Assembly: GCA_030737835.1 (NCBI GenBank)
Contig: JAUJYN010000017.1
Location: forward strand, 124,001 to 188,000
Reading direction: 5' to 3'
DNA: 64,000 nt
Source of the DNA: Acorus gramineus
Taxonomy: Eukaryota > Streptophyta > Magnoliopsida > Acorales > Acoraceae
The notes under the pieces were generated by a model that made no database searches, was not told where the DNA came from, and saw nothing but the letters and a program-made list of their open reading frames with translations. Positions within the stretch are counted from its first letter, which is position 1. The number at the start of each line of letters is the position of its first letter. Of this stretch, positions 23,619 through 58,013 are shown in pieces. A program made the translations under genes and the position numbers.

Positions 23619-23655
23619 ATCTAGACGGACGGTCGCGCGACGACCCCGATCTCTG
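23619..23655 (+). other. Predicted leader micro-exon (element C 5' LTR)
   Basis: A conserved block of 37 nt starts ATCTAGACGGACGG and ends ATCTCTG, followed by the consensus donor GTGAGT at 23656. A candidate acceptor is TTTTCTCTTCAG at 24731. Confidence 0.4.
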
Positions 23656-31705: not shown

Positions 31706-31710
31706 ATAGC
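31706..31710. other. Right target-site duplication of element C (ATAGC)
   Basis: ATAGC follows the 3' LTR and continues in phase into the satellite (ATAGCCACCGGTTC). It matches the left flank except for one deleted A. Confidence 0.75.
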
Positions 31711-33194: not shown

Positions 33195-35687
33195 TGTTGT
33201 GCCTGTGTCATTTTGGAGCGCTCTGTTTGAAAATTTTGGGTACATAAATTTTTTTCGTAAGTTATGTATTTCCAATTTGCCGTTTGGATTTGATTTTGTA
33301 AAAATCCAAGATGAAGAGGTAAAATTCTGATTTTATTATGAGACGTCCAGTTTTGAGTTAGCTTTCGTTTGGAAGTGGAATTAGATCAACTGGATTCTTG
33401 TAGTAAAAGTTATGGGTATTCTTCCAAGTGTATCCCGGGGATGGAAATTCTGGCTGCAGCCCTGTTCCATGTTTGACTCTAAATTCGGAATAGCTGGGGA
33501 GATTATTTGATCATGTCATAAACATGAAAGTTGTAGATAATCTTCTTAGCTTTCCACCGGTTTTGGAATTGATCCATTCGGAGCTATATCGAGGAAGTTA
33601 TGGCTGTTCTAGTGAAGCTTGCGCAGAATTTCGAGTGAAAGGGTGCGTATGTCATTTCCCCTTAAGTTATATGATAAATATCTCATCTATCTCTCTCTCC
33701 CTCCCAAGTGCACGTCGACCTTCATCTGAGGCTCTCTCTTTCACCTCTTCAAGCCCCCCCTTGTGTTTGTTTAAATGCCCCAAAGAGAAGGAGGAGGTGG
33801 AGGAGGAAGTGGTGGTGGATTCTTGGTGCATGTGTGATGGTTGTTTGTTTTCCTCTCTCTCAAGCTCTCCCTTTCCATGCTTTCCCCCCCCCCCTGATTT
33901 TGGCTGAAGAGGAGGCTGAGGAGAGGTGGTGGTGGTGGTGGTTTCGGTGGCGGCGTTTCGGTGCGCGAAGGGCCCCCGAACATCCCCCTTTGTTCCCCCT
34001 CCAAGATCTGGACGGACGGTCGCGCGACGACCCCGATCTCTGGTGAGTGGGACAATCCAACCCAGTAGAGAGGTGTTATACGCACTTGAGCGTATACCGA
34101 CCTCTCCTGGGGCACCATGGATAGATATTGGCATGTGAAATATGTATATCATGCGAGCATGATTTAATTGTAGAATGCATGTTACCCTAGACTTTGCATG
34201 TTAGGGACTTGCACCCTTAGGATATGTATATGAGCCATGCAGCATGTCCCCTGGTTCCTTGTTAGGAAGCCCGACCGATGCATGTGCCCTACTAGTTTAA
34301 TTTATTAAATTAAATGCTAGTAAATGTTAAATTGCATGTTATAGTGAATATTATAGGGAAGGGCCCTTGCGAGGACAGCGGTGAGACCCGGGTTAGGGTA
34401 CACCGTGTTCCTTGTTTGGTTGTCGGGGTGTCCTATAACGGGAACTCACGCTGCCCTCCCGAGTTTCTTTCCCCAACAATATTCCACCTTGTTATAACCT
34501 TATGCATGTTCCCCGCATCGTAGTTATGCGCCCTGGTGGGTTATGAGGAATTCAGAACATTAGTGTTGTTATAATGTGCCGTCTGCGGATCCAAGTGGAT
34601 CATATGCGATGGGTAGGCTGTTCTGTTCCCTTCGTTGGATCCGGTAGAGACTACCCCAGTGTTAGACAGGCCTTCCTGACAGAGGGCTCCCATCAGTAGG
34701 CACCTCCTGATTTAGGACGGACTGTGCTGAATGTGGGAGTAGACCAGGCGGCCTACGGAGTGGAGGAGAGACTATCGGTGGACCAAGGGTGACCAACAGC
34801 CTAGTCAGTCCCAAAATCCTATGTCACCCATTGAAGGGTGAGGGTGAGGGTGTAGTGGGTTGGCGATGAACGACCCACTGGAGTTGTGATTGGATGCTTG
34901 TAAGTCCCAAAATCCTATGTCACCCATTGAAGGGTGAGGGTGAGGGTGTAGCGGGTTGGCGGAAGCGACCCGTTGGTTTTTGGTGCAGTTAGTCCCAATA
35001 TCCTATGTCACCCATTGAAGGGTGAGGGTGAGGGTGTGGCGGGTTGGCGGAAGCGACCCGCTGGTTATGTGTAGCCAGTCCCAATATCCTTTGTCGCCCA
35101 TTGAAGGGTGAGGGTGAGGGTGTAGTGGGTTGGCGATTGAGCAACCCACGGCTTTGAGTTGTGCTATCATTTGTGGATTAATTAATATGAATTGTGGATC
35201 ATAAGGATATCTGGTTGTGGTCAATATTGTCTGTGATGCATGGGTTGTGCCGTTCACTGAGCGTGTGGCTCACCCCTCGCATAATATTTTCTTCAGTGTC
35301 ATCTGAGTCGGATCCATAGGAGGAGCTCCCCGAGGGACTTCATCAGTAGCGGAGTAGCACCACGTCCCGCGAGTTGCAGAGACTATCAGCATCCCTTGTA
35401 CCAGTACGTATTATTTTCCGTGCTTGGGCACGCGTTTGTGTTGTATTTGGACGTCTTTGTATGTATATTGGCTCTCACAGGACATGTGATTATGTATGGA
35501 GTCTGTAGTGTGTTTTGATTACAGATTCAGTCTTTAGTTATCCGCATTTGGTGTATATATCATGTCAGCCCTGCTTTGTTGTCTGTATGTCATTCTAGTA
35601 GCTTGTGTATGATATTATTGACCTCCTGTGTAGATTCTGATATTTTATATACACTTGCCGCGTCTCGGGGACGCCCGGGGCGTGACA
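33195..35687 (+). repeat. 5' LTR of element D (2493 bp, intronless form)
   Basis: It starts TGTTGTGCCTGTGTCATTTT and ends GGGGCGTGACA. The U3 is unrelated by eye to the A/C/E U3, while the downstream part (from ATCTGGACGGACGG onward) is shared with them. At 34005/34006 the sequence reads CCAAG/ATCTGG with no GC-rich segment between. LTR F has the same flanks with an 827-bp GT...AG segment at exactly this junction. A four-unit hairpin minisatellite lies at about 34806-35152. Confidence 0.92.
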
Positions 35688-35693
35688 AAAAGG

Positions 35694-35705
35694 TGGTATC
35701 AGAGC
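35694..35705 (+). other. Primer-binding site of element D
   Basis: TGGTATCAGAGC lies six bases after the LTR end. Confidence 0.9.
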
Positions 35706-35807
35706 CTGGTCCTGTCAGAGCCAATGGTCTTCTTTCGTAGAGATGAGTCCTAGGATTTTGATATGGGTATTCTGATCCTAGAGTCTGGTTTTCTTAGGAT
35801 TGCTGAT

Positions 35808-36236
35808 ATGTCTCCTCGTGGAGGACGGCGCGGACATGGTCCCTCTCGACCTTTGGAGGTTTCCGGACCTGCTAGAGGCGAGGATGCTACTGGAGAGTCC
35901 ACGGCTGTGAGGCCAGGATCGGCGCAGGAGCCTCCCGCACGGGAACGTGCGTTCGCTTGGACAGCGGATTCGGTGGAGACTCGGATCAAGGCACTGGAGG
36001 CGCAGACCAGAGCGTTGGTAGAGCAGGCGCGGGAGATCCGGGAGCTGAGGGCGGCCCGTGATGCAGTTCCACAGGTCCCCTTGGCAGCAGATCCGTCTGT
36101 GGTACCCGAAGTACCCCCAGTCCCCGTGGTGTTTCCAGCGGTGAGAGTTCAGGATCCCCTAGTGAGGGAGGTGGAGCTAGAGGCTGCAGAGCGGGTAATG
36201 AGTGTGGTTGTTCGAGTTAAAGAGGCCGGGTTGTAG
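35808..36236 (+). pseudogene. Truncated gag of element D (143 codons)
   Basis: The frame starts MSPRGGRRGHG, follows the C gag for about 128 residues to ELEAAERV, then runs into non-gag sequence and stops at VKEAGL. The Gag core and zinc knuckle are missing. The deletion joins the early gag to the sequence that in element C lies just after gag (GGTAATGA...TGTGGTTG). The E internal region has the same deletion, so it predates the split of these copies. Confidence 0.85.
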
Positions 36237-36920
36237 CCGTCCTGGCAGGAGGCTCTCGTCCGTAGGTACCACCGATGCAGTCGGAGGGGTACTGATCGTG
36301 GGAGTGTGTCAGGTAGGGGCTAACCCGGAAATGGATTAATGGATGGTGTCGCGAGCGTGGAATCGCTCTCCCCTTCATTGGATTCGAGTAGTACAGCCCC
36401 GACGTTAGACAGGCTCCCAGTCAGAGGACCAGGCGAGCTACGGAGCGGGGATAGGCTACCGGTGGACCAGGGGTAGAGAGCAGTCTAAGTCTCTCCCAAA
36501 GTCCCAAAATGTCTCCTGATGGGAGTGAGGGTGTGGATGAGACAAAGACGCGTCAACTCGTGACCCAAATTGCTGTTCGACCATTCCCCTAGAGGTTGGG
36601 TCCGGTCTTGAGAAGGATGTTGAATGACATCGTTGGGTGATCATCTAGAGGTAGATGATCCGGAGGGGTTAGTGGTGTTCTTTTAAATGATGTCTTCTTC
36701 CAGTGTTCCTTTCTGGATTAATGGGCCTTGTGAGGTCGGCGTTGGAACCCGGGCTAGGGTACTTCGTGTTCCTTGTTTGGTTGTCGGGGTATCCTATATC
36801 GGGATTTCATGGTGCCCTCCCGAGGTTTCTTTTCCCAGGTAAGGGATGCCATGGAAGCATCAGATAGATGAGAGATCAAGTGCGAGTTTGGTTAGAGGTT
36901 AAGGCCTTTTGGGCTGAGTG
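36237..36920 (+). other. Non-coding internal module of element D with LTR-like segments
   Basis: No gene is seen. The stretch is homologous to 26640-27690 of element C but has one copy, not two, of the GGATTCG...GTTAGACAGG segment, followed by a GTCCCAAAATGTCTCC unit and the GGGCCTTGTGAGG stretch. Confidence 0.7.
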
Positions 36921-37240
36921 ATTTCTGGTGAAGGCATATCTGTGGACCCGGGTAAGACGCTTGCTATGTCGAATTGGCGTAGGCCGTCGAACCCCGCAAG
37001 GATTCGGAGCTTCCCGAGTTGGCGGGTTATTGCAGGAAGCTTGACGAGGGTCTCTCGAAGATAGCTGTTCCTCTTAACCGCTTTACTTGGAAAGATGTCC
37101 GGTTCGAGTGGTCCCCTTCTTGCGAGGAGAGCTTTCTGGAGTTTTATCGGAGGCTCACCTCAGCGCCAGTTCTTACCCTTCCGTCTTGGAGGGGTGGGTT
37201 CGCAGTTTGCTCCGATGCATCGCGGTTGGATGTGGTGATG
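36921..37240 (+). pseudogene. RT C-terminal / RNase H start remnant (element D)
   Basis: It is collinear with A pol nt 1637-1960: [18 protein letters not shown], then [11 protein letters not shown] and the start of RNase H (FAVCSDAS). Frameshifts break it. Confidence 0.85.
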
Positions 37241-37840
37241 CGTTCGATCGGGATCGGGTGCGTCCTATTGCAGCTAAGTGGGCGATCGCTAGTGGACTGA
37301 GTTCCATAGTGGCATTTGGAGTCGCTTCGATATGTCATTGTGCGTTGTAGCTGCCCGGTTGAGGCCAGAGCCCTGTTAGGTGCTCCCCACTGTTGTGCTT
37401 GTTGGTGCGCCCATATGGCAGATATAGCGGGCTTGGGAGGCTACCAGGTAGAGGCCACACCGGGAGAGTGCTGCTAAATGATGTCGAGAGTATGGACTCC
37501 TTGTGATGAATCTGCCCATGGAGTGCAGGATGCCGGAGTCCAATGGTTATATGAGCGGCCTATCTCTGGTGGCATGTAAGCACAGTTTTGGATACTGTCG
37601 CGTTTTGCCCCACATTGGTCGCAAATAAGGAGGCGCGATGCTAGCGTTCGTGATGGGACTCAACCGCCATATCAGATTGATGACGTCGCATAGGCATTGT
37701 CGAGATTCGACGACCCCTTTATTGCGTGTCTTGTGGATTAAGTGCGGTTGAGCGGCTTACCTAGCGTGTAAGTGTTATCATGAGCGCCAGCCATGCTCGA
37801 AGAGCAGAATCCGAACTTGATTGTTCATGGTGTTGTTTTG
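37241..37840 (+). other. Unrecognised filler in element D internal region
   Basis: No domain, RNA gene or repeat is recognised. The same sequence occurs in the E internal region at about 47741-48330, so it is a shared component of this sub-family. Confidence 0.5.
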
Positions 37841-38130
37841 ATCTCCCCGTGGAGGTTGAAGATCAATTACCTTTGCCGCGAATCGATCATCTATTTGACC
37901 AGCTCTGGGAGCGAGTGTCTGCTGTTAGATCGATCTTCGCACAAGGGTACCACAAGCCGGAGATCCGAGAGTTGGACATCCCGTAGATGGCCTTTCGTGA
38001 CCGTTCAAGCACTACGAGTTTTAAGTACTGCCGTCAGGGTTGACGAATGCGCCGGATGCCTTTGTGGATCTCAAAAGTTTTATTGGGTTTCCGAGGACTA
38101 CTTTGGGGTAGTCTTTGTTGAGTTGCTGTG
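37841..38130 (+). pseudogene. Degenerate RT N-terminal remnant (element D)
   Basis: This matches A pol nt 1223-1450 (LPLPRIDHLFDQL, then a degenerate [13 protein letters not shown] region) with several frameshifts and a stop. It lies downstream of the RT C-terminal remnant, so the pol order is scrambled. Confidence 0.75.
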
Positions 38131-39310
38131 GTGTGATGAAAAGGTGATGTGGGTGACCTTGATTTCCCCAAGTTGGCATGCCCTCAAGCAAGATTCAAAA
38201 ATCATCATTGCGTGGAAAACGTCAGTCCATCGAGATTCCTCAGTGGACGTGGGAGTGGGTTATCAGGGATTGCTGCAGACTCGTTAATGTCACGTTCGGG
38301 TCACGACACCGTCTAGGTGATCATCGACCGACTGACTAAGTCCGCGATTCCCTCCCTATCAGACTGATTGAGTCTCTGGACGTCTTGACGTGGGTTTCCA
38401 CCTTCGCGATTGTTCGTCTTCATGGCACTCCAGTCGGCGCTATTTTCGGTTGAGACGCGAGGGCTACTTTGAGGTTGTGGCGCAGGCTTTGGCGCGAGCC
38501 TCCATTTAAGTACAGCGTTTCTTCGCCGATGGACAGCCAGTCAAAGAGGACGATTCGGACCTTGGAGGACATGCTAATTGCCTGCGTGCTCGATGGTGAG
38601 GGCAGTTGGGTGAGGCACCACCCGTTTGTTGGGGTATGCCTGCAAGCGACTGCCATTCGAGCACCCGGATGGATCGGTGATGGGCACTCTACAGACGCAG
38701 TTTCATACCTCCCTTGTGTTGGGACGGTTGAGGAGCGCCAGTTGGAGGGGCCATAAGTTAGTTGTTTGACCTCGCGGTGGCCGGGTTGGTTAGGGTGTAC
38801 ATCTGCACCTCCCAGAACCGACAGGAGGGCTACCCGGGTCATCGTCGCCAGAAGCTTACCTTCGGGTTTGGCGACCATAATTGCAAGGAAGTGTCCTGGT
38901 TTAAGGGCATCCTCCGTTTTGACGTTCGGGGCTAGCTAAGTTGGCTCTTTAATGGGACTGTTTCTCGTCATTGAGTGGATTGGGGAGGTGGCTTGTCATG
39001 TAGCCTTTCCCCCACCGCTGGCTTATGCCCACGACGTCGTCCTTGTCTCTTGACTGAGGCGTTATGTCCAAGATCCTGCTCATGTCTTTCTGTTCGACCG
39101 CCTCATTCTGGAGGTGGATTTGTCGTTCGTGGAGCAGTGGATCGAGGTCAGAGACCAGCATGAGAAGAGGCTCCACGCTAAGACCGTTCCTTTGATTATA
39201 GTGTGTTGGTAGCGCCAGTCCGGTGCGAAGACCACTTGGGAGCAAAGGTCTAAGCATGATACTTTCGGTCTTCCCTTTGGGTTTCCTTAAATTTCGAGGA
39301 CTAAATTTCC
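38131..39310 (+). pseudogene. Degenerate integrase and chromodomain remnants (element D)
   Basis: Fragments correspond to the integrase catalytic core (VIIDRLTKSA near 38320; a [15 protein letters not shown]-like stretch near 38530), then the C-terminal region and a decayed chromodomain (LSFVEQ near 39120). Many frameshifts and stops are present. Confidence 0.8.
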
Positions 39311-39324
39311 TAAGGGGGGAATGA

Positions 39325-41816
39325 TGTTGTGCCTGTGTCATTTTGGAGCGCTCTGTTTGAAAATTTTGGGTACATAAATTTTCTTCGTAAGTTATGTATT
39401 TCCAATTTGCCGTTTGGATTTGATTTTGTAAAAATCCAAGATGAAGAGGTAAAATTCTGATTTTATTATGAGACGTCCAGTTTTGAGTTAGCTTTCGTTT
39501 GGAAGTGGAATTAGATCAACTGGATTCTTGTAGTAAAAGTTATGGGTATTCTTCCAAGTGTACCCCGGGGATGGAAATTCTGGCTGCAGCCCTGTTCCAT
39601 GTTTGACTCTAAATTCGGAATAGTTTGGGAGATTATTTGATCATGTCATAAACATGAACATTGTAGATAATCTTCTTAGCTTTCCACCGGTTTTGGAATT
39701 GATCCATTCGGAGCTATATCGAGGAAGTTATGGCTGTTCTAGTGAAGCTTGCGCAGAATTTCGAGTGAAAGGGTGCGTATGTCATTTCCCCTTAAGTTAT
39801 ATGATAAATATCTCATCTATCTCTCTCTCCCTCCCAAGTGCACGTCGACCTTCATCTGAGGCTCTCTCTTTCACCTCTTCAAGCCCCCCTTGTGTTTGTT
39901 TAAATGCCCCAAAGAGAAGGAGGAGGTGGAGGAGGAAGTGGTGGTGGATTCTTGGTGCATGTGTGATGGTTGTTTGTTTTCCTCTCTCTCAAGCTCTCCC
40001 TTTCCATGCTTTCCCCCCCCCTGATTTTGGCTGAAGAGGAGGCTGAGGAGAGGTGGTGGTGGTGGTGGTTTCGGTGGCGGCGTTTCGGTGCGCGAAGGGC
40101 CCCCGAACATCCCCCTTTGTTCCCCCTCCAAGATCTGGACGGACGGTCGCGCGACGACCCCGATATCTGGTGAGTGGGACAATCCAACCCAGTAGAGAGG
40201 TGTTATACGCACTTGAGCGTATACCGACCTCTCCTGGGGCACCATGGATAGATATTGGCATGTGAAATATGTATATCATGCGAGCATGATTTAATTGTAG
40301 AATGCATGTTACCCTAGACTGTGCATGTTAGGGACTTGCACCCTTAGGATATGTATATGAGCCATGCAGCATGTCCCCTGGTTCCTTGTTAGGAAGCCCG
40401 ACCGATGCATGTGCCCTACTAGTTTAATTTATTAAATTAAATGCTAGTAAATGTTAAATTGCATGTTATAGTGAATATTATAGGGGAGGGGCCTTGCGAG
40501 GACAGCGGTGAGACCCGGGTTAGGGTACACCGTGTTCCTTGTTTGGTTGTCGGGGTGTCCTATAACGGGAACTCACGCTGCCCTCCCGAGTTTCTTTCCC
40601 CAACAATATTCCACCTTGTTATAACCTTATGCATGTTCCCCGCATCGTAGTTATGCGCCCTGGTGGGTTATGAGGAATTCAGAACATTAGTGTTGTTATA
40701 ATGTGCCGTCTGCGGATCCAACTGGATCATATGCGGTGGGTAGGCTGTTCTGTTCCCTTCGTTGGATCCGGTAGAGACTACCCCAGCGTTAGACAGGCCT
40801 TCCTGACAGAGGGCTCCCATCAGTAGGCACCTCCTGATTTAGGACGGACTGTGCTGAATGTGGGAGTAGACCAGGCGGCCTACGGAGTGGAGGAGAGACT
40901 ATCGGTGGACCAAGGGTGACCAACAGCCTAGTCAGTCCCAAAATCCTATGTCACCCATTGAAGGGTGAGGGTGAGGGTGTAGTGGGTTGGCGATGAACGA
41001 CCCACTGGAGTTGTGATTGGATGCTTGTAAGTCCCAAAATCCTATGTCACCCATTGAAGGGTGAGGGTGAGGGTGTAGCGGGTTGGCGGAAGCGACCCGT
41101 TGGTTTTTGGTGCAGTTAGTCCCAATATCCTATGTCACCCATTGAAGGGTGAGGGTGAGGGTGTGGCGGGTTGGCGGAAGCGACCCGCTGGTTATGTGTA
41201 GCCAGTCCCAATATCCTTTGTCGCCCATTGAAGGGTGAGGGTGAGGGTGTAGTGGGTTGGCGATTGAGCAACCCACGGCTTTGAGTTGTGCTATCATTTG
41301 TGGATTAATTAATATGAATTGTGGATCATAAGGATATCTGGTTGTGGTCAATATTGTTTGTGATGCATGGGTTGTGCCGTTCACTGAGCGTGTGGCTCAC
41401 CCCTCGCATAATATTTTCTCTTCAGTGTCATCTGAGTCGGATCCATAGGAGGAGCTCCCCGAGGGACTTCATCAGTAGCGGAGTAGCGCCACGTCCCGCG
41501 AGTTGCAGAGACTATCAGCATCCCTTGTACCAGTATGTATTATTTTTCGTGCTTGGGCACGCGTGTGTGTTGTATTTGGACGTCTGTGTATGTATATTGG
41601 CTCTCACAGGACATGTGATTATGTATGGAGTCTGTAGTGTGTTTTGATTACAGATTCAGTCTTTAGTTATTCGCATTTGGTGTATATATCATGTCAGCCC
41701 TGCTTTGTTGTCTGTATGTCATTCTAGTAGCTTGTGTATGATATTATTGACCTCCTGTGTAGATTCTGATATTTTATATACACTTGCCGCGTCTCGGGGA
41801 CGCCGGGGGCGTGACA
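39325..41816 (+). repeat. Second LTR of element D (2492 bp, intronless form)
   Basis: It is nearly identical to 33195-35687 and carries the same exact CCAAG/ATCTGG junction (40132/40133) without the GC-rich segment. A purine tract (AAGGGGGGAATGA) precedes it. A four-unit minisatellite lies at about 40931-41278. It is followed not by host DNA but by another primer site and gag start. Confidence 0.92.
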
Positions 41817-41822
41817 AAAAGG

Positions 41823-41834
41823 TGGTATCAGAGC
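41823..41834 (+). other. Primer-binding site after second D LTR
   Basis: TGGTATCAGAGC again lies six bases after the LTR end, showing that this LTR also acts as a 5' LTR for the next internal segment. Confidence 0.88.
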
Positions 41835-41936
41835 CTGGTCCTGTCAGAGCCAATGGTCTTCTTTCGTAGAGATGAGTCCTATGATTTTGATATGGGTATT
41901 CTGATCCTAGAGTCTGGTTTTCTTAGGATTGCTGAT

Positions 41937-42365
41937 ATGTCTCCTCGTGGAGGACGGCGCGAACATGGTCCCTCTCGACCTTTGGAGGTTTTCGGACCTG
42001 CTAGAGGCGAGGATGCTACTGGAGAGTCCACGGCTGTGAGGCCAGGATCGGCGCAGGAGCCTCCCGCACGGGAACGTGCGTTCGCTCGGATAGCGGATTC
42101 GGTGGAGACTCGGATCAAGGCACTGGAGGCGCAGACCAGAGCGTTGGTAGAGCAAGCGCGGGAGATCCGGGAGCTGAGGGCGGCCCGTGATGCAGTTCCA
42201 CAGGTCCCCATGGCAGCAGATCCGTCTGTGGTACCCGAAGTACCCCCAGTCCCCGTGGTGTTTCCAGCGGTGAGAGTTCAGGATCCCCTAGTGAGGGAGG
42301 TGGAGCTAGAGGCTGCAGAGCGGGTAATGAGTGTGGTTGTTCGAGTTAAAGAGGCCGGGTTGTAG
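41937..42365 (+). pseudogene. Truncated gag, second internal copy (143 codons)
   Basis: It has the same start and end as the frame at 35808-36236 with a few substitutions (for example REHGPSRPLEVF). It lacks the Gag core and zinc knuckle. Confidence 0.85.
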
Positions 42366-43136
42366 CCGTCCTAGCAGGAGGCTCTCGTCCGTAGGTACCA
42401 CCGATGCAGTCGGAGGGGTACTGATCGTGGGAGTATGCCAGGTAGAGGCTAACCCGGAAAAGGATTAATGAATGATGTCGCGAGCGTGGAATCGCTCTCC
42501 CCTTCATTGGATTCGAGTAGTACAGCCCCGACGTTAGACAGGCTCCCAGTCAGAGGACCAGGCGAGCTACGGAGCGGGGATAGGCTACCGGTGGACCAGG
42601 GGTAGAGAGCAGTCTAAGGCTCTCCCAAAGTCCCAATATGTCTCCTGATGGGAGTGAGGGTGTGGATGAGACAAAGACGCGTCAACTCGTGACCCAAATT
42701 GCTGTTCGACCATTCCCACGGAGGTTGGGTCCGGTCTTGAGAAGGATGTTGAATGACATCGTTGGGTGATCATCTAGAGGTAGATGATCCGGAGGGGTTA
42801 GTGGTGTTCTTTTAAATGATGTCTTCTTCAAGTGTTCCTTTCTGGATTAAGGGGCCTTGTGAGGTCGGCGTTGGAACCCGGGCTAGGGTACTTCGTGTTC
42901 CTTGTTTGGTTGTCGGGGTATCCTATATCGGGATTTCATGGTGCCCTCTCGAGGTTTCTTTTCCCAGGTAAGGGATACCATGGAAGCATCAGAAAGATGA
43001 GAGATCAAGTGCGAGTTTGGTTAGAGGTTAAGGCCTTTTGGGCTGAGTGATTTCTGGTGAAGGCATATCTGTGGACCTGGGTAAGACGCTTGCTATGTCG
43101 AATTGGCGTAGGCCGTCGAACCCCGTAAGGATTCGG
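42366..43136 (+). other. Truncated second internal region
   Basis: This is the LTR-like non-coding module plus the first part of the RT C-terminal remnant ([18 protein letters not shown]). It breaks at GGATTCGG and joins an E-type LTR that lacks its first 21 bases. The trinucleotide AGC is shared at the join (43137-43139), which suggests end-joining at microhomology. Confidence 0.75.
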
Positions 43137-46100
43137 AGCCTGCTGGTAACCGTTGGAGCGTTCTGGCAGTTTTTAAAATTTTTAGGGTTTTCGATCGGAA
43201 CCGCTAATTTTTGGACTGTTAGCTATCGTCCTGAGTTAAAGGACTCAGATTGAAAATCTAACTGAATATTTGGTGTCCTGGTGCCGTTTTAGACCTCCCA
43301 CGAAAATTTCATCGAATTCCGGTAACGTTCCCGAAATTTCGCAGTTCCGGGGCGTATCTGGGTTTTTAAGTCACACACTATATAAGGATGGGATCTAATT
43401 TTCGAGGTACTATTCATCATCCCTACCAAATGAGATTTTCTCTCTCCTTCTCTCTTTTTCTCACTTTTGAGCCCCCTAGAGCCCTCAAAGCTTAAAACCT
43501 AAAGCATAGGAAGTGTAGATCGGGTCCCGATCTACACCCCGGTGCTTTCAAATTCGAATTCCGGCGAGATTTGCCCCTCCGTCCCCCCTCTCTTCTTCCC
43601 TGATTTGAGCCATTTCGGTGGTGGAGGTAGATCCGGGCGTTAGAAGCCTTTTGAGGGAGGTTTCGGTGCGTGGAGAGCAACCGGACTTCGCTTCCTCCCC
43701 TTGGTAAGCCTCTTTTCCTCTCTTTTCTTGCATAGATGTATGCTAGGGGATGGATTTGGGGTTGGGTGGCTGTGGGTGGCCATCGGAGTGGTGGTCGGAG
43801 GCCATTGGTGGCCGGAGGTGGGTGGTAGGGGAGCTCGGGCTGGCAGGCAGGCAGCAGCACAGGCAGCAGCAGCAGGCGCAGCAGGCAGGGCCACTGGCAG
43901 GGCGCGCGCGTGCGTGCGCGCGGGCGTGCGCGCGGGTGGCGCTGGGCACTGGGTGCTGGGCACTGGGCGCGGGCGTTGGGCGCTGGGTGCTGGGCGCTGG
44001 GCGCGGGTGCTGGTGCGAGCGGGGGTGTGCGCGCGGGTGCGCGCGGGCGGGCGCGGGCGTGCGCGCGCGCGGGCAGGGCGCCTGGGCACTGTGCCTGGGT
44101 GCTGGGCAGGGCGCCTGGGCATGCGCCTGGGCGCGGTGCTGGGGGCCAGTGCGCGCGGTGCTGGGGGCCAGTGCGTGCGCGTGCTGGGGCGTGCGCGCGG
44201 GGGCGCGCTGGGCTGGACGTGCGGTGCGCGCGGGCGCGCGCGAGCGTGCGCGTGCGTGCGGCGGTGCGTCGGGGCGCGCGGGCCGGCGTGTGACAGTGCG
44301 CCGGTGGTGTCCGGGTGTGTGGGCTGGGCTCGGCAGTGCGCCTTGGCACGCGGGCCGAGGCTCAGCTGTGCGCTCGGGGCGGGTGGCCGTGCGTGCGGCT
44401 GCCCGGTGGGTTCGGGAGTGAGTGGGTTTTGTGTGTTTGGGGTATTTTAGAGTATTTATGTATTGTTCTCACCATATTGAATGTCTGTCTTGCAGATCTG
44501 GACGGACGGTCGCGCGACGACCCTGATCTCTGGTGAGTGGGACAATCCAACCCAGTAGAGAGGTGTTATACGCACTTGGGCGTATACCGACCTCTCCTAG
44601 GGCACCATGGATAAATATTGACATATTGTAATGTGTATATCATGCGAGCATGATTAAATTGTAGAATGCATGTTACCCTAGACTTTGCATGTTAGGGACT
44701 TGCACCCTTAGGATATGTGTATGAGCCATGCAGCATGTCCCCTGGTTCCATGTTAGGAAGCCCGGCCGATGCATGTGCCCTACTAGTTTATTTATTTAAT
44801 TAAATGCTAGTATTTGTTAAATTGCATGTTATAGTGAATATTATAGGGGAGGGGCCTTGCGAGGACAGCGGTGAGACCCGGGTTAGGGTACACCGTGTTC
44901 CTTGTTTGGTTGTCGGGGTGTCCTATAACGGGAACTCACGCTGCCCTCCCGAGTTTCTTTCCCCAACGATATTCCACCATGTTACAACCTTATGCATGTT
45001 CCCCGCATCGTAGTTATGCGCCCTGGTGGGTTCTGAGGAATTCAGAACATTAGTGTTGTTATGATGTGTTGTTGCGGATCCGAGTGGATCATATGCGATG
45101 GATAGGCTGTCTGTTCCCTTCGTTGGATCCTTTAGACACTACCTCAGCGTTAGACAGGTTGTCCCGTGCAGGGGCTCCCAGTAGTAGGCGCCTCCTGATT
45201 TGGTGAAGGACTGTGCTGAACGTGGGAGTGGCCAAACGACCTACGGAGTGAGGAGAGACTATCGGTGGACCAAGGGTGACCAACAGCCTAGTCAGTCCCA
45301 AGAGCCTATGTCACCCGTTGTAGGGTGAGGGTGAGGGTGTAGTGGGTTGGCGATGAGCGACCCGCTGGATTTGTCTATGGATGATTGTCAGTCCCAATAT
45401 CCTATGTCACTCCTGTTGAGGGGTGAGGGTGAGGGTGTAGTAGGTTGGCGATAGCGACCTGCTGGATTGGTGTAGTAAGTCCCAATATCCTTGGTCACCC
45501 ATTGAGGGTGAGGGTGAGGGTGTAGCGGGTTGGCGGAAGCGACCCGTTGGTTTTGTGTTGATTAGTCCCAATATCCTTGGTCACCCATTGAGGGTGAGGG
45601 TGAGGGTGTAGTGGGTTGGCGGTAGCGACCCACTAGTTGAGGAATTGTTGATTATTGGTGGCTATGGTAAATGTGGTTGTGGATGTTAAGAATTATCTGG
45701 TTGTGGTCAATATTGTCTGTGATGCATGGGTTGTGCCGTTCACTGAGCGTGTGGCTCACCCCTCGCATAATATTTTCTTCAGTGTCATCTGAGTCGGATC
45801 TGGAGGAGGAGCTCCCCGAGGGACTTCATCAGTAGCGGAGTAGCGCCACGTCCCGCGAGTTCCAGAGACTATCAGCATCCCTTGTGCCAGTATGTATTAT
45901 TTTCCGTGCTTGGGCACGCGTTTGGTTGTATTTGGATGTCTTTGTATGTATATTGGCTCTCACAGGACATGTGATTATGTATGGAGTCTGTAGTGTGTTT
46001 TGATTACAGATTCAGTCTTTAGTTATCCGCATTTGGTGTATATATCCTATCAGCCCTGCTTTTGTTGTCTGTGTGTCATTTTGGCTGCTTGTGTATGATA

Positions 46101-46173
46101 TTATTGACCTCCTGTGTAGATTCTGATATTATATATACACTTGCCGCGTACCGGGGACGCCCGGGGCGTGACA
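43137..46173 (+). repeat. 5' LTR of element E, lacking its first 21 bp
   Basis: It begins at AGCCTGCTGGTAACC, which in the partner LTR at 49822 is 21 bases in. It ends CGGGGCGTGACA. It holds a TATA box (43379-43386), a GC-rich splice-bounded segment (43704-44495, 792 bp; CCTTG^GTAAGC to TCTTGCAG^ATCTGG) and a four-unit hairpin minisatellite (about 45294-45635). Confidence 0.88.
43379..43386 (+). promoter_or_regulatory. TATA box of E 5' LTR
   Basis: TATATAAG lies in CACACACTATATAAGGATGG, at the position equivalent to the TATA box of the C LTRs. Confidence 0.7.
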
Positions 46174-46294
46174 AAAAAGGTGGTATCAGAGCCTGGTCCT
46201 GTCAGAGCCAATGGTCTTCTTTCGTAGAGATGAGTCCTAGGATTTTGATATGAGTATTCTGATCCTAGTGTCTGGTTTTCTTAGGATTGCTGAT

Positions 46295-46723
46295 ATGTCT
46301 CCTCGTGGAGGACGGCGCGGACATGGTCCCTCTCGACCTTTGGAGGTTTCCGGACCTGCTAGAGGCGAGGATGCTACTGGAGAGTCCACGGCTGTGAGGC
46401 CAGGATCGGCGCAGGAGCCTCCCGCACGGGAACGTGCGTTCGCTCGGATAGCGGATTCGGTGGAGACTCGGATCAAGGCACTGGAGGCGCAGACCAGAGC
46501 GTTGGTAGAGCAGACGCGGGAGATCCGGGAGCTGAGGGCGGCCCGTGATGCAGTTCCACAGGTCCCCTTGGTAGCAGATCCGCCTGTGGTACCCAAAGTA
46601 CCCCCAGTCCCCGTGGTGTTTCCAGCGGTGAGAGTTCAGGATCCCCTGGTGAGGGAGGTGGAGCTAGAGGCTGCAGCGCGAGTATTGAGTGTGGTTGTTC
46701 GAGTTAAAGAGGCCGGGTTGTAG
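46295..46723 (+). pseudogene. Truncated gag of element E (143 codons)
   Basis: It starts MSPRGGRRGHG, follows the C gag to ELEAAARV and then continues into LSVVVRVKEAGL and a stop. It carries the same deletion as both D copies. The Gag core and zinc knuckle are absent. Confidence 0.85.
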
Positions 46724-47408
46724 CCGTCCTGGCAGGAGGCTCTCATCCGTAGGTACCGCCGATGCAGTCGGAGGGGTACTGATCATGGGAGTGTCTCAGG
46801 TAGGGGCTAACCCGGAAATGGATTAATGGATGGTGTCGCGAGCGTGGAAATCGCTCTCCCCTTCGTTGGATCCGCGTAGTACAGCCCCGGCGTTAGACAG
46901 GTTCCCGGTCAGAGGACCAGGCGAGCTACGGAGCGGGGAGAGGCTACCGGTGGACCAGGGGTAGAGAGCAGTCTAAGTCTCTCCCAAAGTCCCAATATGT
47001 CTCCTGATGGGAGTGAGGGTGTGGATGAGACAAAGACGCGTCAACTCGTGACCCAAATTGCTGTTCGACCATTCCCACGGAGGTTGGGTCCGGTCTTGAG
47101 AAGGATGTTGAATGACATCGTTGGGTGATCATCTAGAGGTAGATGATCCGGAGGGGTTAGTGGTGTTCTTTTAAATGATGTCTTCTTCCAGTGTTCCTTT
47201 CTGGATTAAGGGGCCTTGTGAGGTCGGCGTTGGAACCCGGGCTAGGGTACTTCGTGTTCCTTGTTTGGTTGTCGGGGTATCCTATATCGGGATTTCATGG
47301 TGCCCTCCCGAGGTTTCTTTTCCCAGGTAAGGGATGCCATGGAAGCATCAGATAGATGAGAGATCAAGTGCGAGTTTGGTTAGAGGTTAAGGCCTTTTGG
47401 GCTGAGTG

Positions 47409-47740
47409 ATTTCTGGTGAAGGCATATCTGTGGACCCGGGTAAGACGCTTGCTATGTCGAATTGGCGTAGGCCGTCGAACCCCGCAAGGATTCGGAGCTT
47501 CCCGAGTTGGCGGGTTATTGCAGGAAGATTGACGAGGGACTCTCGAAGATAGCTGTTCCTCTTAACCGCCTTACTTGGAATGATGTCCGGTTCGAGTGGT
47601 CCCCTTCTTGCGAGGAGAGCTTCTGGAGTTTTATCGGAGGCTCACCTCAGCGCCAGTTCTTACCTTCCGTCTGGGAGGGGTGGGTTCGCAGTTTGCTCCG
47701 ACGCATCGCAATTGGGTGTGGTGATGCGTTCGATCGGAAT
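47409..47740 (+). pseudogene. RT C-terminal / RNase H start remnant (element E)
   Basis: It matches A pol nt 1637-1960 with frameshifts ([30 protein letters not shown]). Confidence 0.83.
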
Positions 47741-48330
47741 CAGGTGCGTCCTATTGCAGCTCAGTGGGCGATCGCTAGTGGACAGGGTTCCATAGTGGCA
47801 TCTGGAGTCGCTTCGATAAATCATTATGTGTTGTAGCTGCCCGGTTGAGGCCAGAGCCCTATGAGGTGCTCCCAGATGCTATGCTTGTTGGTGCGCCCAT
47901 ATGGCAGAGATAGCGGGCTTGGGAGGCTACCAGGTAGAGGCCACACCGGGAGAGTGCTGCTAAATGATGACGAAAGCATGGACTCCCCGTGATGAATCTG
48001 CCCATGGAGTGCAGGATGCCGGAGTTCCAATGGTTGTGATGAGCGGCCTATCTCTGGCGGCATGTAAGCACAGTTGTAGATACTGTCGCGTTTTGCCCCA
48101 CATTAGTCGCAAATAAGGAGACGCGATGCTAGCGTTCGTGATGGGACTTGACCGCCATATCAGATAGATGACGTTGCATAGGCATTGTCGAGGTCCGACG
48201 ACCCCTTATTGCATGTCTTGTGGATTAAGTGCGGTTGAGCGGCTTACCGAGCGTGTAAGTGTTATCATGAGCGCCAGCCATGCTCGAAGAGCAGAATCCG
48301 AACTTGATTGTTCATGGTGTTGTTTTGATC

Positions 48331-48640
48331 TCCCCGTGGAGGTAGAAGATCAATTACCTTTGCCGCGAATCGATGATCTATTTGAGCAGCTCTGAGAGCG
48401 AGTGTCTGCTGTTAGATCGATCTTCGCACAAGGGTACCACAAGCCGGAGATCCGAGAGTTGGACATCCCGTAGATGGCCTTTCGTGACCGTTCAGGCACT
48501 ACGAGTTTTAAGTACTGCCGTCGAGGTTGACGAATGCGCCGGATGCCTTCGTGGATCTCAAAAGTTTTATTGGGTTTCCGAGGACTACTTTGGGGTAGTC
48601 TTTGTTGAGTTGCTGTGGTGTGATGATAAGATGATGTGGG
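48331..48640 (+). pseudogene. Degenerate RT N-terminal remnant (element E)
   Basis: [13 protein letters not shown], followed by degenerate RT sequence equivalent to A nt 1223-1450. As in D it lies after the RT C-terminal piece. Confidence 0.75.
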
Positions 48641-48699
48641 TGACCTTGTTTCCCCAGGTTGGCATGCCCTCAGGCAAAGTTCGAGAATCATCATCGAGT

Positions 48700-49810
48700 G
48701 AAAAGCGTCAGTCCATCAAGATTCCTCAGTGGACGTGAGAGTGGGTTGTTAGGGATTGTTGCAGACTCGTTAATGTCACGTTCGGGTCACGACGCCGTCT
48801 GGGTGATCATTGACCGACTGACTAAGTCCGCGATTCCCTCCCTATCAGACTGATTGAGTCTCTGGATGCCTTGACGTGGGTTTTCACCTTCGCGATTGTT
48901 CGTCTTCATGGCACTCCAGTGGGCGCTATTTTCGGTTGAGACGCGAGGGTTACTTTGAGGTTGTGGCGCAGCCTTTGGCGCGAGCCTCCATTTAAGTATA
49001 GCGTTTCATCGCCGATGGACAGCCATCAATGAGGACGATTCGAACCTTGGAGGACATGCTATGTGCCTGCGTGCTCGATGATGAGGGCAGTTGGGTGAGG
49101 CACCACCCATTGTTGGGGTATGCCTGCAAGCGACTGCCATTCGAGCACCCAGATGGATCTGTGAAGGGCACTCTACAGGCGCAGTTCCATACCTCCCTTG
49201 TGTTGGGACGGTAGTGGAGCGCCAGTTGGAGGGGCCATAAGTTAGTTGCTTGACCTTGCGGTGGCCGGGTTGGTTCGTGTGTATATCTGCACCTCCCAGA
49301 ACCGACAGAGGGCTACCCAAGTCATCGTCGCCAGGGGCTTACCTTTGGGTTTTGGCGACCATATTTTTCAGAAGGTGTCCTGGTTTAGGGGCACCCTCTG
49401 TTTCGACGTTCGGGGCAAGCTGAGTTGCTCTTTAATGGGACCTTTTTCTCGTCATTGAGTGGATTGGGGAGGTGGCTTATCATGTAGCCTTTCCCCCACA
49501 GCTGGTTCATGCCCACGACGTCGTCCTTGTCCCATGGCCGAGGCGTTATGTCCACGATCCTGCTCACGTCATCCCGTTCGAGCCGCTCGTCGTCGAGCCG
49601 GGCTTGTCATTCGTTGAGCAGTCGATTGAGATCCTGGACCGCCGCGTGAAGAGGCTCTGCACCAAGACCGTCCAGTTGGTCGAGGTGAAATGGCAGCACC
49701 GTTCCGGTGTCAAGGACACATGGAAGCTCATGGATGCCAGGTGTGACGCGTATCCGCATCTTTTTCCCCTCGTAGATGTTTTTGCATATTTTGAGGACAA
49801 AATTTCCTAA
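48700..49810 (+). pseudogene. Integrase and chromodomain remnants (element E)
   Basis: Integrase core fragments (GHDAVWVIIDRLTKSA near 48790; a TIRTLEDML-like stretch near 49035), then a C-terminal region (HDPAHVIPFEPLV, LSFVEQSIEILDRR) and a chromodomain with VEVKWQHRSGVKDTWKL. The last 240 bases are open; the upstream part is broken by stops and frameshifts. Confidence 0.83.
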
Positions 49811-49821
49811 GGGGGGGAGAA

Positions 49822-50505
49822 TGTTATACTTGTGTCACTTTTAGCCTGCTGGTAACCGTTGGAGCGTTCTGGCAGTTTTTAAAATTTTTAGGGTTTTCGA
49901 TCGGAACCGCTAATTTTTGGACTGTTAGCTATCGTCCTGAGTTAGAGGACTCCGATTGAAAATCTAACTGCATATTTGGTGTCCTGGTGCCGTTTTAGAC
50001 CTCTCACGAAAATTTCATCGAATTCCGGTAACGTTTCCGAAATTTCGCAGTTCCGGGGCGTATCTGGGTTTTTAAGTCGCACACTATATAAGAGTGGGAT
50101 CTAATTTCCGAGGTACTGTTCATCATCCCTACCAAATGAGTTTTTCTCTCTCCCCTCTCTCTTTTTCTCACTTTTGACCCCCCTAGAGCCCTCAAAGCTT
50201 AAAACCTAAAGCATAGGAAGTGTAGATCGGGTCCCGATCTACACCCCGGTGCTTTCAAATTCGAATTCCGGTGAGATTTGCCCCTCCGTCCCCCTCTCTT
50301 CTTCCCTGATTTGAGCCATATCGGTGGTGGAGGTAGATCCGGGCGTTAGAAGCCTTTTGAGGGAGGTTTCGGTGCGTGGAGAGCAACCGGACTTCGCTTC
50401 CTCCCCTTGGTAAGCCTCTTTTCCTCTCTTTTCTTGCATAGATGTATGCTAGGGGGATGGATTTGGGGTTGGGTGGCTGTGGGTGGCCGTCCGAGTGGTG
50501 GTCCG
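49822..50505 (+). repeat. 3' LTR of element E, left portion
   Basis: It starts TGTTATACTTGTGTCAC after the purine tract, with a TATA box at 50085-50092 and a GTAAGC donor at 50410. It stops at GTGGTGGTCCG near 50501-50505, where the sequence switches to an inverted gag start. The right portion of what is probably the same LTR reappears at 53998. Confidence 0.85.
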
Positions 50506-50681
50506 AAAACCTCCAATGGTCGAGAGGGACCATGTCCGCGCCGTCCTCCACGAGGAGACATATCAGCAATCCTAAGAAAACCAGACACTAGGATCAGAGT
50601 ACTCATATCAAAATCCTAGGACTCATCTCTACGAAAGAAGACCATTGGCTCTGACAGGACCAGACTCTGATACCACCTATT

Positions 50682-53600
50682 TGTCACGCCCCAGGCGTCC
50701 CCGGGACGCGGCAAGTGTATATATAATATCAGAATCTACACAGGAGGTCAATAATATCATACACAAGCAACCAGAATGACACACAGACAACAAAAGCAGG
50801 GCTGACATGATATATACACCAAATGCGGATAACTAAAGACTGAATCTGTAATCAAAACACACTACAGATTCCATACATAATCACATGTCCTGTGAGAGCC
50901 AATATACATGCAAAGACATCCAAATACAACACAAAACGCGTGCCCAAGCACGGAAAATAATACATACAGGTACAAGGGATGCTGATAGTCTCTGCAACTC
51001 GCGGGACGTGGCGCTACTCCGCTACTGATGAAGTCCCTCGGGGAGCTCCTCCTCTGGATCCGACTCAGATGACACTGAAGAGAAAATATTATGCGAGGGG
51101 TGAGCCACACGCTCAGTGAACGGCACAACCCATGCATCACAGACAATATTGACCACAACCAGATATCCTTATAATCCACAATTCATATTACTTAATCCAC
51201 AAATGATAGCACAACTCAAAGCCGTGGGTTGCTCAATCGCCAACCCACTACACCCTCACCCTCACCCTTCAATGGGCGACAAAGGATATTGGGACTGGCT
51301 ACAGATAACCAGCGGGTCGCTTCCGCCAACCCGCCACACCCTCACCCTCACCCTTCAATGGGTGACATAGGATATTGGGACTAACTGCACCAAAAACCAA
51401 CGGGTTGCTTCCGCCAACCCGCTACACCCTCACCCTCACCCTTCAATGGGTGACATAGGATTTTGGGACTTACAAGCATCCAATCACAACTCCAGTGGGT
51501 CGTTCATCGCCAACCCACTACACCCTCACCCTCACCCTTCAATGGGTGACATAGGATTTTGGGACTGGCTAGGCTGTTGTTCACCCTTAGTCCACCGATA
51601 GTTCTCCTCCACTCCGTAGGCCGCCTGGTCTACTCCCACATTCAGCACAGTCCGTCCTAAATCAGGAGGTGCCTACTGATGGGAGCCCTCTGTCAGGAAG
51701 GCCTGTCTAACGCTGGGGTAGTCTCTACCAGATCCAACGAAGGGAACAGAACAGCCTACCCATCGCATATGATCCACTTGGATCCGCAGACGGCACATTA
51801 TAACAACACTAATGTTCTGAATTCCTCAGAACCCACCAGGGCGCATAACTACGATGCGGGGAACATGCATAAGGTTATAACAAGGTGGAATGTCGTTGGG
51901 GAAAGAAACTCGGGAGGGCAGCGTGAGTTCCCGTTATAGGACACCCCGACAACCAAACAAGGAACACGGTGTACCCTAACCCGGGTCTCACCGCTGTCCT
52001 CGCAAGGCCCTCCCCTATAATATTCACTATAACATGCATTGTAAACAAATACTAGCATTTAATTTAATAAATAAACTAGTAGGGCACATGCATCGGTCGG
52101 GCTTCCTAGCATGGAAACAGGGGACATGCTGCATGGCTCATACACATCCTAAGGGTGCAAGTCCCTAACATGCAAAGTCTAGGGTAACATGCATTCTACA
52201 ATTAAATCATGCTCGCATGATATACACATTACAACATGCCAATATTCATCCATGGTGCCCCAGGAGAGGTCGGTATACGCCCAAGTGCGTATAACACCTC
52301 TCTACTGGGTTGGATTGTCCCACTCACCAGAGATCGGGGTCGTCGCGCGACCGTCCGTCCAGATCTACAAGACAGACATTCAATATGGTGAGAACAATGC
52401 ATAAAATACCCAAAAATACATCTAAAATACCCAACACTCGGATAAACGTACATACGGCCCGTACGCACGTGTATCCGAGCATCCCGACTCACTCCCGAAC
52501 CCACCGGGCAGCCGCACGCACGGCCACCCGCCCCGGGCGCACAGCCAAGCCTCGGCCCGCGCGCCAAGGCGCACTGCCGAGCCCAGCCCGCACACCCGGA
52601 CACCACCGGCGCACTGTCGCACGCCGGCCCGCGCGCCCCGACGCACCGCCGCACGCACGCGCACGCTCGTGCGCGCCCGCGCGCACCGCGCGTCCAGCCC
52701 AGCGCGCCCCCGCGCGCACTGCACGCACGCCCCAGCACGCGCACGCACTGGCCCCCAGCACCGCGCGCACTGGCCCCCAGCACCGCGCCCAGGCGCATGC
52801 CCAGGCGCACTGCCCAGCACCCAGGCGAAGTGCCCAGGTGCCCTGTCGCGCGCGCGCACGCTCGCGCGCACGCCTGCGCGCGCCCGCGCGCACCTGCGCA
52901 GACCCCCGCTGGCACGCCCGCTCGCGCCAGCATCCGCGCGCACCCGCGCACCCGCTCCGCGCGCACCCGCGCACTCGCGCGCAAGCGCCCGCGCGCGCCT
53001 GCGCGCCCGACTGCGCCTGCCTGGGCGCGCGCCCGCGCGCAAACGACGCCCAGACCGCGCCCAAGCCCTCTTAACCTCCTTTTAACCCATTCTAACCCCT
53101 CCCACACACCCCAACCTACCCAGCCACCATGCATGACCTTCCCAACACCCTTAAGCCAAAAAAAATTAAGAAAAGGAGGGGAGGAGCTCACCTTGGAGGG
53201 GGAACAAAGGGGGATGTTCGGGGGCCCTTCGCGCACCGAAACGCCGCCACCGAAACCACCACCACCACCACCTCTCCTCAGCCTCCTCTTCAGCCAAAAT
53301 CAGGGGGGGGAAAGCATGGAAAGGGAGAGCTTGAGAGAGAGGAAAACAAACAACCATCACACATGCACCAAGAATCCACCACCACTTCCTCCTCCACCTC
53401 CTCCTTCTCTTTGGGGCATTTAAACAAACACAAGGGGGGGCTTGAAGAGGTGAAAGAGAGAGCCTCAGATGAAGGTCGACGTGCACTTGGGAGGGAGAGA
53501 GAGATAGATGAGATATTTATCATATAACTTAAGGGGAAATGACATACGCACCCTTTCACTCGAAATTCTGCGCAAGCTTTACTAGAACAGCCATAACTTC

Positions 53601-53997
53601 CTCGATATAGCTCCGAATGGCTCAATTCCAAAACCGGTGGAAAGCTAAGAAGATTATCTACAACTTTCATGTTTATGACATGATCAAATATCCTCTCCAG
53701 CTATTCCGAATTTAGAGCCAAACATGGAACAGGGCTGCTGCCAGAATTTCCATCCCCGGGGTACACTTGGAAGAATACCCATAACTTTTACTACAAGAAT
53801 CCAGTTGATCTAATTCCACTTCCAAACGAAAGCTAACTCAAAACTGGACGTCTCATAATAAAATCAGAATTTTACCTCTTCATCTTGGATTTTTACAAAA
53901 TCAAATCCAAACGGCAAATTGGAAATACATAACTTACGAAAAAATTATGTACTCAAAATTTTCAAACAGAGCGCTCCAAAATGACACAGGCACAACA
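50682..53997 (-). repeat. Inverted D-type LTR of F, intron-containing form (3316 bp)
   Basis: It shares its U3 with the two D LTRs but is about 823 bp longer. The extra sequence is the segment 52365-53191. It holds a four-unit hairpin minisatellite at 51222-51575 (minus strand). It ends GGGGCGTGACA on the minus strand (TGTCACGCC at 50682). Confidence 0.9.
52365..53191 (-). other. Predicted LTR leader intron 1 in F (827 bp), exactly absent from the D LTRs
   Basis: On the minus strand the flanks read CCAAG^GTGAGCTCC at 53191 and GTCTGTCTTGTAG^ATCTGG at 52365. The two D LTRs read CCAAGATCTGG with nothing between. Removal from GT to AG reproduces the D sequence exactly, as expected if D descends from a spliced, reverse-transcribed RNA. 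Confidence 0.78.

Positions 53998-57982: not shown

Positions 57983-58013
<31 letters not shown>

Follow-up and report, generated by a model that had tools for sequence, protein, structure and literature searches.

A putative intron inside the LTR of a plant Ty3/gypsy retrotransposon family and its apparent loss through a spliced template

An 827-bp block that begins with GT and ends with AG is present in one LTR (F) of a retrotransposon family in Acorus gramineus and is missing from both LTRs of a second element (D) in the same window, the window being the whole 64,000-nt stretch of DNA analysed here. The preliminary description of this DNA had proposed an intron inside the LTR and descent of D from a spliced genome, and this remains the best-supported reading: we consider it very probable that a leader intron lies wholly within the LTR (in R-U5), that it is usually retained in the RNA that is reverse-transcribed, and that D derives from a spliced template. 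The segment is kept in five more LTRs, in which donor, branch-like site and acceptor are conserved, evidence that is new since the first reading.

The gap in both LTRs of element D

The features of F and D are as follows (a slash within letters marks a splice junction).

33195..35687, plus strand: LTR D5, intronless, exon-exon-like junction at 34005/34006
39325..41816, plus strand: LTR D3, intronless, junction at 40132/40133; downstream of it lie a PBS and a second internal region
50682..53997, minus strand: LTR F, 3316 bp, in inverse orientation within the 3' LTR of element E
53192..53997, minus strand: upstream part of LTR F, putative U3 plus exon 1, with TATA-like GATAAATA at LTR position 477
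52365..53191, minus strand: predicted intron 1 of LTR F, 827 nt, CCAAG/GTGAGC ... CTTGTAG/ATCTGG, missing from D5 and D3
52328..52364, minus strand: predicted exon 2 of LTR F (37 nt), last bases CTCTG, before a further conserved donor (GTGAGT, starting at 52327)

The bases and coordinates first given for the block were correct, and direct reading of D5 and D3 gave CCAAG/ATCTGG at both junctions. It had been proposed that F be aligned with the D LTRs to see whether the gap is a clean GT-AG one. In BLAST alignments the gap is clean; the flanks of the block in F overlap by 2 nt (AG) on D5 and likewise on D3, giving three equivalent placements of the gap, one of which is GT-AG. Both D LTRs have the gap at the exon-exon-like junction, the mark expected of a retro-spliced copy. 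The missing block nearly accounts for the difference in LTR length (F 3316, D5 2493 and D3 2492 bp), as first noted, since F without the segment measures 2489 bp; in this form it is 98.07% identical to D5 and 97.71% to D3.

D is a tandem with the order LTR-internal-LTR-internal, and the intron-minus state is represented in the window by this one lineage, as the two LTRs of a single tandem. The simultaneous loss from both LTRs, which had been taken as a sign of splicing, is a valid observation but not a diagnostic one, because any R-U5 deletion in the parental 5' LTR would be copied into both. The discriminating evidence is the exact fit of the gap to conserved splice sites.

F belongs as 5' LTR to a truncated, not a complete, element, which consists of the LTR and 182 bp that include the PBS-like TGGTATCAGAGTC. 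Judged by predicted gene content, the family is plant Ty3/gypsy and chromovirus-like. The domains above cut-off in element G (RVP_2, RVT_1, RT_RNaseH and Integrase_H2C2) follow the Ty3/gypsy order (gag, protease, RT-RNaseH, integrase), with rve under cut-off (22.3 vs 32.6 bits). A Retrotrans_gag match came from element B, the short gag ORF of G (58670-59131) being without one, and Chromo at the integrase C-terminus (E 2.8e-4, 21.2 bits) fell under the curated cut-off of 25.1. From LTR length we presume, as a guess, membership of the Tekay/Del clade. The acceptor/exon-2 block gave no exact-pattern match in the viral or genome contigs scanned, as expected for a plant element.

Splice signals and predicted leader layout in the LTRs that keep the segment

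The segment is kept in each of the five further LTRs covering the site (A3, B5, C3, E5 and G5), with the donor TTG/GTAAGC or TCG/GTAAGC and the acceptor CTTGCAG/ATCT.

4451..5163, plus strand: predicted intron 1 of LTR A3 (LTR 3867-6638), 713 nt
22303..23618, plus strand: predicted intron 1 of LTR B5 (LTR 21711-25123), 1316 nt, TTG/GTAAGC ... CTTGCAG/ATCT
28838..30104, plus strand: predicted intron 1 of LTR C3 (LTR 28246-31705), 1267 nt
43704..44495, plus strand: predicted intron 1 of LTR E5 (LTR 43137-46173, 5'-truncated), 792 nt
56091..57070, plus strand: predicted intron 1 of LTR G5 (LTR 55501-58550), 980 nt, TCG/GTAAGC ... CTTGCAG/ATCT
50409..50416, plus strand: donor GGTAAGCC in the 5' fragment of the 3' LTR of E (E3, 49823-50503), the acceptor being lost where F sits
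57107..58162, plus strand: second leader intron of G5, prediction only, donor CCG/GTGAGT, candidate acceptor TTTTCAG/TG

U2-type GT-AG motifs, taken as donor GTRAG, acceptor YAG and a branch-like YTNAY 18-40 nt upstream, are present in all six intron-bearing LTRs (F and the five above). The branch-like match lies at -24 or -25 in each, the motif being weak and having further matches within 60 nt of the acceptor. When sites were scored with a plant matrix of assumed rather than fitted splice-site frequencies, the donor of F came first among 287 GTs and its acceptor fourth among 188 AGs; weaker donors were found in G5 (rank 12 of 233) and A3 (rank 11 of 208). Furthermore, the plus strand of the window has six copies of GGTAAGCC, every one an LTR donor, and the minus strand three, none of them a donor, while the six occurrences of CTTGYAGATCTNGACG over both strands are all acceptors (mean of 0.00 in 100 shuffles).

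None of the 10 donor columns is invariant in the whole-LTR MAFFT alignment, as the donors are out of register by 2-3 nt there; donors were therefore located by motif and then checked by local alignment, which placed the end of exon 1 in one column in five of the six LTRs, B5 being one column off. Sliding 40-column identity between F and LTRs of the other type gave a mixed picture for the region upstream of the intron. Between F and C3 it was highest (0.70) immediately before the donor; between F and G5 the best value (0.72) lay in the GC-rich part of the intron, with 0.62 before the donor. C3 and G5 are about 66% identical across intron and flanks, and their longest identical run there, TGTCTTGCAGATCT, covers the acceptor. 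Smaller gaps inside the segment leave both splice sites untouched.

Plant introns are typically U-rich, and the LTR intron did not show U-richness relative to exons in B5, E5, G5 and F, with 17-20% T vs 25-30% in exon 1. Its GC content is 69-74% in the six LTRs. T-rich stretches in the F intron are confined to its two ends (36% T in the first 100 nt, 40% in the last 120 nt).

The intron lies inside the LTR and upstream of the PBS, its first base being 326 (B5), 325 (E5), 323 (G5), 327 (C3) and 330 nt (F) from the TATA-like box. Transcription would start about 30 nt beyond that box, the sole guide to the start site, which would put a GT-AG intron between start and PBS, i.e. in the R-U5 leader, with an exon 1 of about 290-300 nt, an intron of 713-1316 nt and an exon 2 of 36-37 nt. 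Rfam gave no matches in the window at gathering scores.

The second predicted donor is present in all eight LTRs, and D retains it together with candidate acceptors, which means either that the template of D had undergone no more than partial splicing or that the second intron does not exist. The idea that splicing of intron 1 frees the gag start by removing uORFs was rejected on upstream ATG counts, which depend on the assumed start site: intron 1 contains 9 of 50 in B5, 6 of 50 in E5 and 5 of 53 in G5, while the second predicted intron would take out 28, 34 and 38, respectively.

The favoured reading takes intron-retaining RNA as the usual template, so that most copies would keep the intron. 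For the ancestor of D it supposes that the packaged RNA was a spliced one, still equipped with R, the PBS and the polypurine tract; minus-strand strong-stop DNA would have been copied from its spliced R-U5, and strand transfer would have brought the intronless version into both LTRs.

Alternative origins of the gap

A DNA deletion by microhomology in the parental 5' LTR of D, GT-AG by chance and then copied to both LTRs, is an improbable source of the gap, although the segment ends do carry the 2-nt AG repeat and any U5 deletion would reach both LTRs. In LTR F there are 3,510,864 distinct possible deletions of 100-2499 nt, 21,829 (0.62%) of which can be placed as GT-AG and four of which have a donor and acceptor at least equal to the observed pair by the assumed, not fitted, frequencies. 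With an exact 2-nt slip, 2,702 (1.6%) are GT-AG and 4 of 172,711 fit as well as the observed one. The GC-rich segment is unstable in length, with 24 gap rows of at least 15 nt in seven pairwise comparisons (some recording the same event twice); however, 23 of these lie in the intron, no closer than 60 nt to a splice site, and the remaining row, over the donor in C3 vs F, reflects alignment failure in the dissimilar 5' part. As a control, the six elements were screened for gaps of 50-2499 nt that fall between, not within, neighbouring BLAST pieces; the only other clean ones were a gag gap of about 987 bp (D and E vs B) and one of 291 bp (A vs G), neither of them GT-AG. The conservation of the splice sites in copies that still have the segment likewise argues against a chance deletion.

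It is highly improbable that the intronless D type is ancestral and that F acquired the segment by insertion or by recombination with B/C-like LTRs. F is indeed a mosaic, unlike B, C and E before intron nucleotide ~228-303 and 92-96% like them thereafter. However, D lacks the first ~230 nt of the F intron, and B5, C3 and E5 match them at just 52-54% identity, so that a third source abutting the donor precisely would be needed. The intron is, moreover, common to both diverged subfamilies, which makes its presence the older state within the sample. Least probable of all is that the motifs serve otherwise, for example as a protein-binding or packaging element, with a coincidental GT-AG look, for donor and acceptor are among the conserved blocks, and D lacks exactly the stretch between them.

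Precedents and significance

The R-U5 intron of lentiviruses is several times shorter than the putative LTR intron described here (713-1316 nt). In SIV/HIV-2 the R-U5 part of the LTR holds what has been called a functional intron, one that could regulate packaging of genomic RNA; these are lentiviruses, and the available text does not mention a spliced proviral copy (PMC1766366). The maize CRM4TR-derived full-length cDNAs are LTR/UTR transcripts of plant chromovirus origin, and one of three such CRM4-derived cDNAs has a splice in the LTR. They differ in being transcripts of a CRM-derived satellite with the main splice in the UTR, and the text available describes neither a genomic LTR-intron-minus copy nor an LTR intron conserved across subfamilies (PMC3648361). 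At first reading such an intron was not known to have been described for chromovirus LTRs; LTR introns as such are not new, given SIV/HIV-2 and the one maize cDNA.

Internal introns are known in Ogre, EVADE and BARE1, and spliced isoforms in sunflower Tyran and Varan (PMC3735527, PMC12786077, PMC7730604). Only a share of the transcripts of these elements is spliced, as is supposed for the present family; their introns are coding or inter-ORF, none being stated in the available text to lie in an LTR, whereas in the present case the spliced form apparently does exist as a genomic copy. The BARE authors state that spliced RNA has to be kept from reverse transcription, and they could not amplify DNA copies of the spliced BARE RNA (PMC3735527). 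In the intron-marked Ty assay (TyH3 with an inserted intron) intron loss is proof of RNA passage (PMC12786077), the intron there being engineered and here natural and intra-LTR. The parts available of PMC2832683, PMC3605345, PMC6317226, PMC7010299 and PMC7730604 do not describe an LTR intron, and the matches listed, as open-access titles and abstract starts, included no plant element with an LTR intron lost by reverse transcription.

As a possible but doubtful extension, the LTR intron may act as a sorting device and exchange point. Intron-retaining RNA would serve as genome and spliced RNA as message, the information for packaging being located in or close to the intron. The intron would also allow promoter modules to be swapped; D would then be a rare escape, either with no further need of sorting or having lost it. 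Such sorting would explain why both subfamilies keep an intron that reverse transcription of spliced RNA can erase in a single step. In D and F, dissimilar U3-R regions are joined to a B/C-like U5, the breakpoint in F lying inside the intron with both splice sites intact.

How retrotransposons exclude spliced mRNA from the reverse-transcribed pool is an open question, and this genome apparently holds a natural trace of a spliced RNA that served as an element genome. An LTR intron lends itself to scoring, since a single loss leaves its mark in both LTRs, and a tally of intron-plus vs intron-minus LTRs in any genome with this family would measure how often spliced RNA takes the role of genome. 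Differences in LTR length and swaps between LTRs may stem from splicing and recombination in an intron rather than from DNA deletion.

A GT-AG gap between related LTRs

On alignment of LTR F, the 5' LTR of a truncated element, with the LTRs of element D (the digits 5 and 3 denoting 5' and 3' LTRs), a clean GT-AG gap of 827 nt was obtained, AAG/GTGAGC ... CTTGTAG/ATC. The coordinates and bases reported for it in the preliminary description were exact on re-reading of the sequence.

33195-35687: D5, segment missing
39325-41816: D3, segment missing
53997-50682, minus strand: LTR F
53191-52365, minus strand: the 827-nt segment (putative intron) in F

By BLAST, the matches of D5 and D3 to F stop at the predicted donor and resume at the acceptor, the two pieces overlapping by 2 nt (AG); the gap has three equivalent placements, one of them GT-AG. 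Without the segment F measures 2489 bp, against 2493 bp for D5 (98.07% identity) and 2492 bp for D3 (97.71%), so that the segment accounts for the F/D length difference, as had been proposed, save for a few small indels.

The LTRs usable for comparison were A3, B5, C3, D5, D3, E5 (5' truncated), F (minus strand) and G5. All five of the others spanning the region carry the segment, which starts at TTG or TCG/GTAAGC and ends at CTTGCAG/ATCT; the donor is also retained in E3.

Length of the segment in the other LTRs
B5: 1316 nt
C3: 1267 nt
E5: 792 nt
G5: 980 nt
A3: 713 nt

Exon 1 ends in one column of the local alignment for F, C3, E5, G5 and A3, with B5 one column off. YTNAY, a weak motif with further matches close by, is found at -25 (CTCAC) or -24 (CTAAC). 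The six plus-strand occurrences of GGTAAGCC are all LTR donors, and the three on the minus strand lie elsewhere. The looser donor pattern GGTRAGCYYCY gave 12 matches (0.60 in shuffles), of which seven are LTR donors read in the LTR's own sense; the other five lie elsewhere on the minus strand. All six acceptor-pattern matches are acceptors (0.00 in shuffles). Given the relatedness of the copies, such numbers reflect conservation and not independent origins. The comparison of C3 with G5 is more telling, as the two are 66% identical over the intron and short flanks and their longest identical run is TGTCTTGCAGATCT. Furthermore, TATA-like boxes lie 326 (B5), 325 (E5), 323 (G5; a weak box, CTTAAAGG), 327 (C3) and 330 nt (F) before the intron, suggesting that it is probably transcribed as leader.

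Length variation and the odds of a chance fit

With 69-74% GC in six LTRs, the intron is unlike a U-rich plant intron save at its ends, as measured in F. Its body (e.g. 22303-23618) is very GC-rich and of low complexity, with many length variants. Seven pairwise comparisons gave 24 gap rows of at least 15 nt in the segment, some being one event seen twice; 23 are internal, at least 60 nt away from either splice site, and the remaining one (C3 against F), which crosses the donor, reflects a failed alignment across the dissimilar 5' portion. The segment is liable to length change, but nothing else in the sample removes it exactly.

When 3,510,864 different deletions, each of 100-2499 nt, were introduced into LTR F in silico, a GT-AG placement was possible for 0.62%, and four had donor and acceptor scores at least equal to the observed pair. 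Restricted to deletions with a 2-nt slip, 1.6% could be placed as GT-AG and 4 of 172,711 scored as high. The splice-site matrix was an unfitted one, and ranks therefore weigh more than scores: by this matrix the F donor ranks first of 287 GTs and the F acceptor fourth of 188 AGs, with lower donor ranks in G5 (12 of 233) and A3 (11 of 208). A small control, covering gaps of 50-2499 nt between neighbouring BLAST pieces of the elements, turned up further clean gaps (about 987 bp in gag, D and E against B; 291 bp, A against G), none of which is GT-AG.

A second donor-like site, CTG/GTGAGT (CCG/GTGAGT in G5 and A3), is present in all eight LTRs, 36-37 nt past the acceptor:

34043, 40170, 52327 (minus strand), 23656, 30142, 44533, 57107, 5200: second predicted donor

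Candidate second acceptors, TTCAG/TG and TACAG/A, lie about 390 and about 163 nt before the LTR end. These sites predict a further leader intron, which none of the eight LTRs has lost. As D retains these sites, its template would not have been fully spliced if the second intron is real.

The element nest and the mosaic F LTR

In the window, Ty3/gypsy elements form a nest of plant type, lying within and next to a satellite with a unit of about 758 bp. This array (~6775-21735, 31706-33195 and ~55196-55518) is interrupted by the nest; many 300-nt stretches of its units are 98-100% identical, some 65-84%. Domains of protease, RT, RNaseH and integrase are encoded by element G, and gag by element B. 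A chromodomain match at the integrase end (E-value 2.8e-4, 21.2 bits) falls under the Pfam cut-off of 25.1. Complete LTRs start with TGTT and end with GACA. Directly after B5, D5, D3, E5 and G5 stands TGGTATCAGAGC, which we take to be the PBS of initiator-Met tRNA, and a variant of it follows F.

Element D forms a tandem LTR-internal-LTR-internal arrangement (33195-43136) cut off by element E, its internal copies being 98.0% identical over the 1320-nt stretches compared. E3 is split in two pieces with F inverted between them (49823-55112); about 1.26 kb of that LTR has given way to F, which consists here of its LTR and 182 bp. About 987 bp of B's gag is missing from E and both D internal copies, a deletion common to D and E in a lineage that is probably non-autonomous:

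25632-26620: gag stretch of B
36189-36196 and 42318-42325 (D), 46678-46683 (E): gap sites, 6-8 nt overlap, not GT-AG

The upstream LTR part (U3/exon 1) common to F and D is 98-99% identical between them and aligns at only 50-54% identity to the other LTRs:

33195-34005, 39325-40132 and 53192-53997 (minus strand): dissimilar U3/exon-1 region of D and F

Downstream of the acceptor, by contrast, 96-97% identity links F and D to B5 and C3, pointing to an LTR module swap joining the D/F U3/exon-1 region to a nearly identical downstream LTR. Within the F intron, the first ~230 nt show 52-54% identity with B5, C3 and E5, and have no BLAST match elsewhere within the window before about nt 157, and the rest is 92-96% like these LTRs, indicating that F is a mosaic with its breakpoint inside the intron. 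The intron occurs in both diverged subfamilies, which argues that, within this sample, an LTR with the intron is the older form and that D lost it.

Probable loss through a spliced template

Retroviral replication takes the U5 sequence from the 5' end of the RNA and places it in both LTRs. A spliced leader would retain R, the PBS and the polypurine tract, and could be reverse-transcribed. Absence from both D LTRs at once, put forward earlier as a mark of such a template, does fit one but is not proof, since any parental U5 deletion gives the same result; the argument rests on the exact match to conserved splice signals. With the gap lying at signals conserved in five other LTRs, the proposal of an intron inside the LTR, with D descended from a spliced genome, is supported, and on this sequence evidence we consider it very probable. 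Against it count the single loss event, in the D lineage, the GC-rich composition of the intron, the weaker donor ranks of G5 and A3, and the second predicted donor and candidate acceptors still present in D.

In the literature consulted, splicing in the LTR, as predicted here, is known from SIV/HIV-2, with a functional R-U5 intron (PMC1766366), and from maize CRM4TR, where one of three cDNAs is spliced in the LTR (PMC3648361), whereas the spliced introns of Ogre, EVADE and BARE1 are internal (PMC12786077, PMC3735527). Against this background, what would be new is the combination of a conserved plant-LTR intron and a genomic copy from which it was removed via RNA. The intron is kept by six of eight LTRs covering the site, suggesting that the replicating RNA is usually unspliced or rarely spliced, which might reflect a sorting of unspliced RNA into replication.
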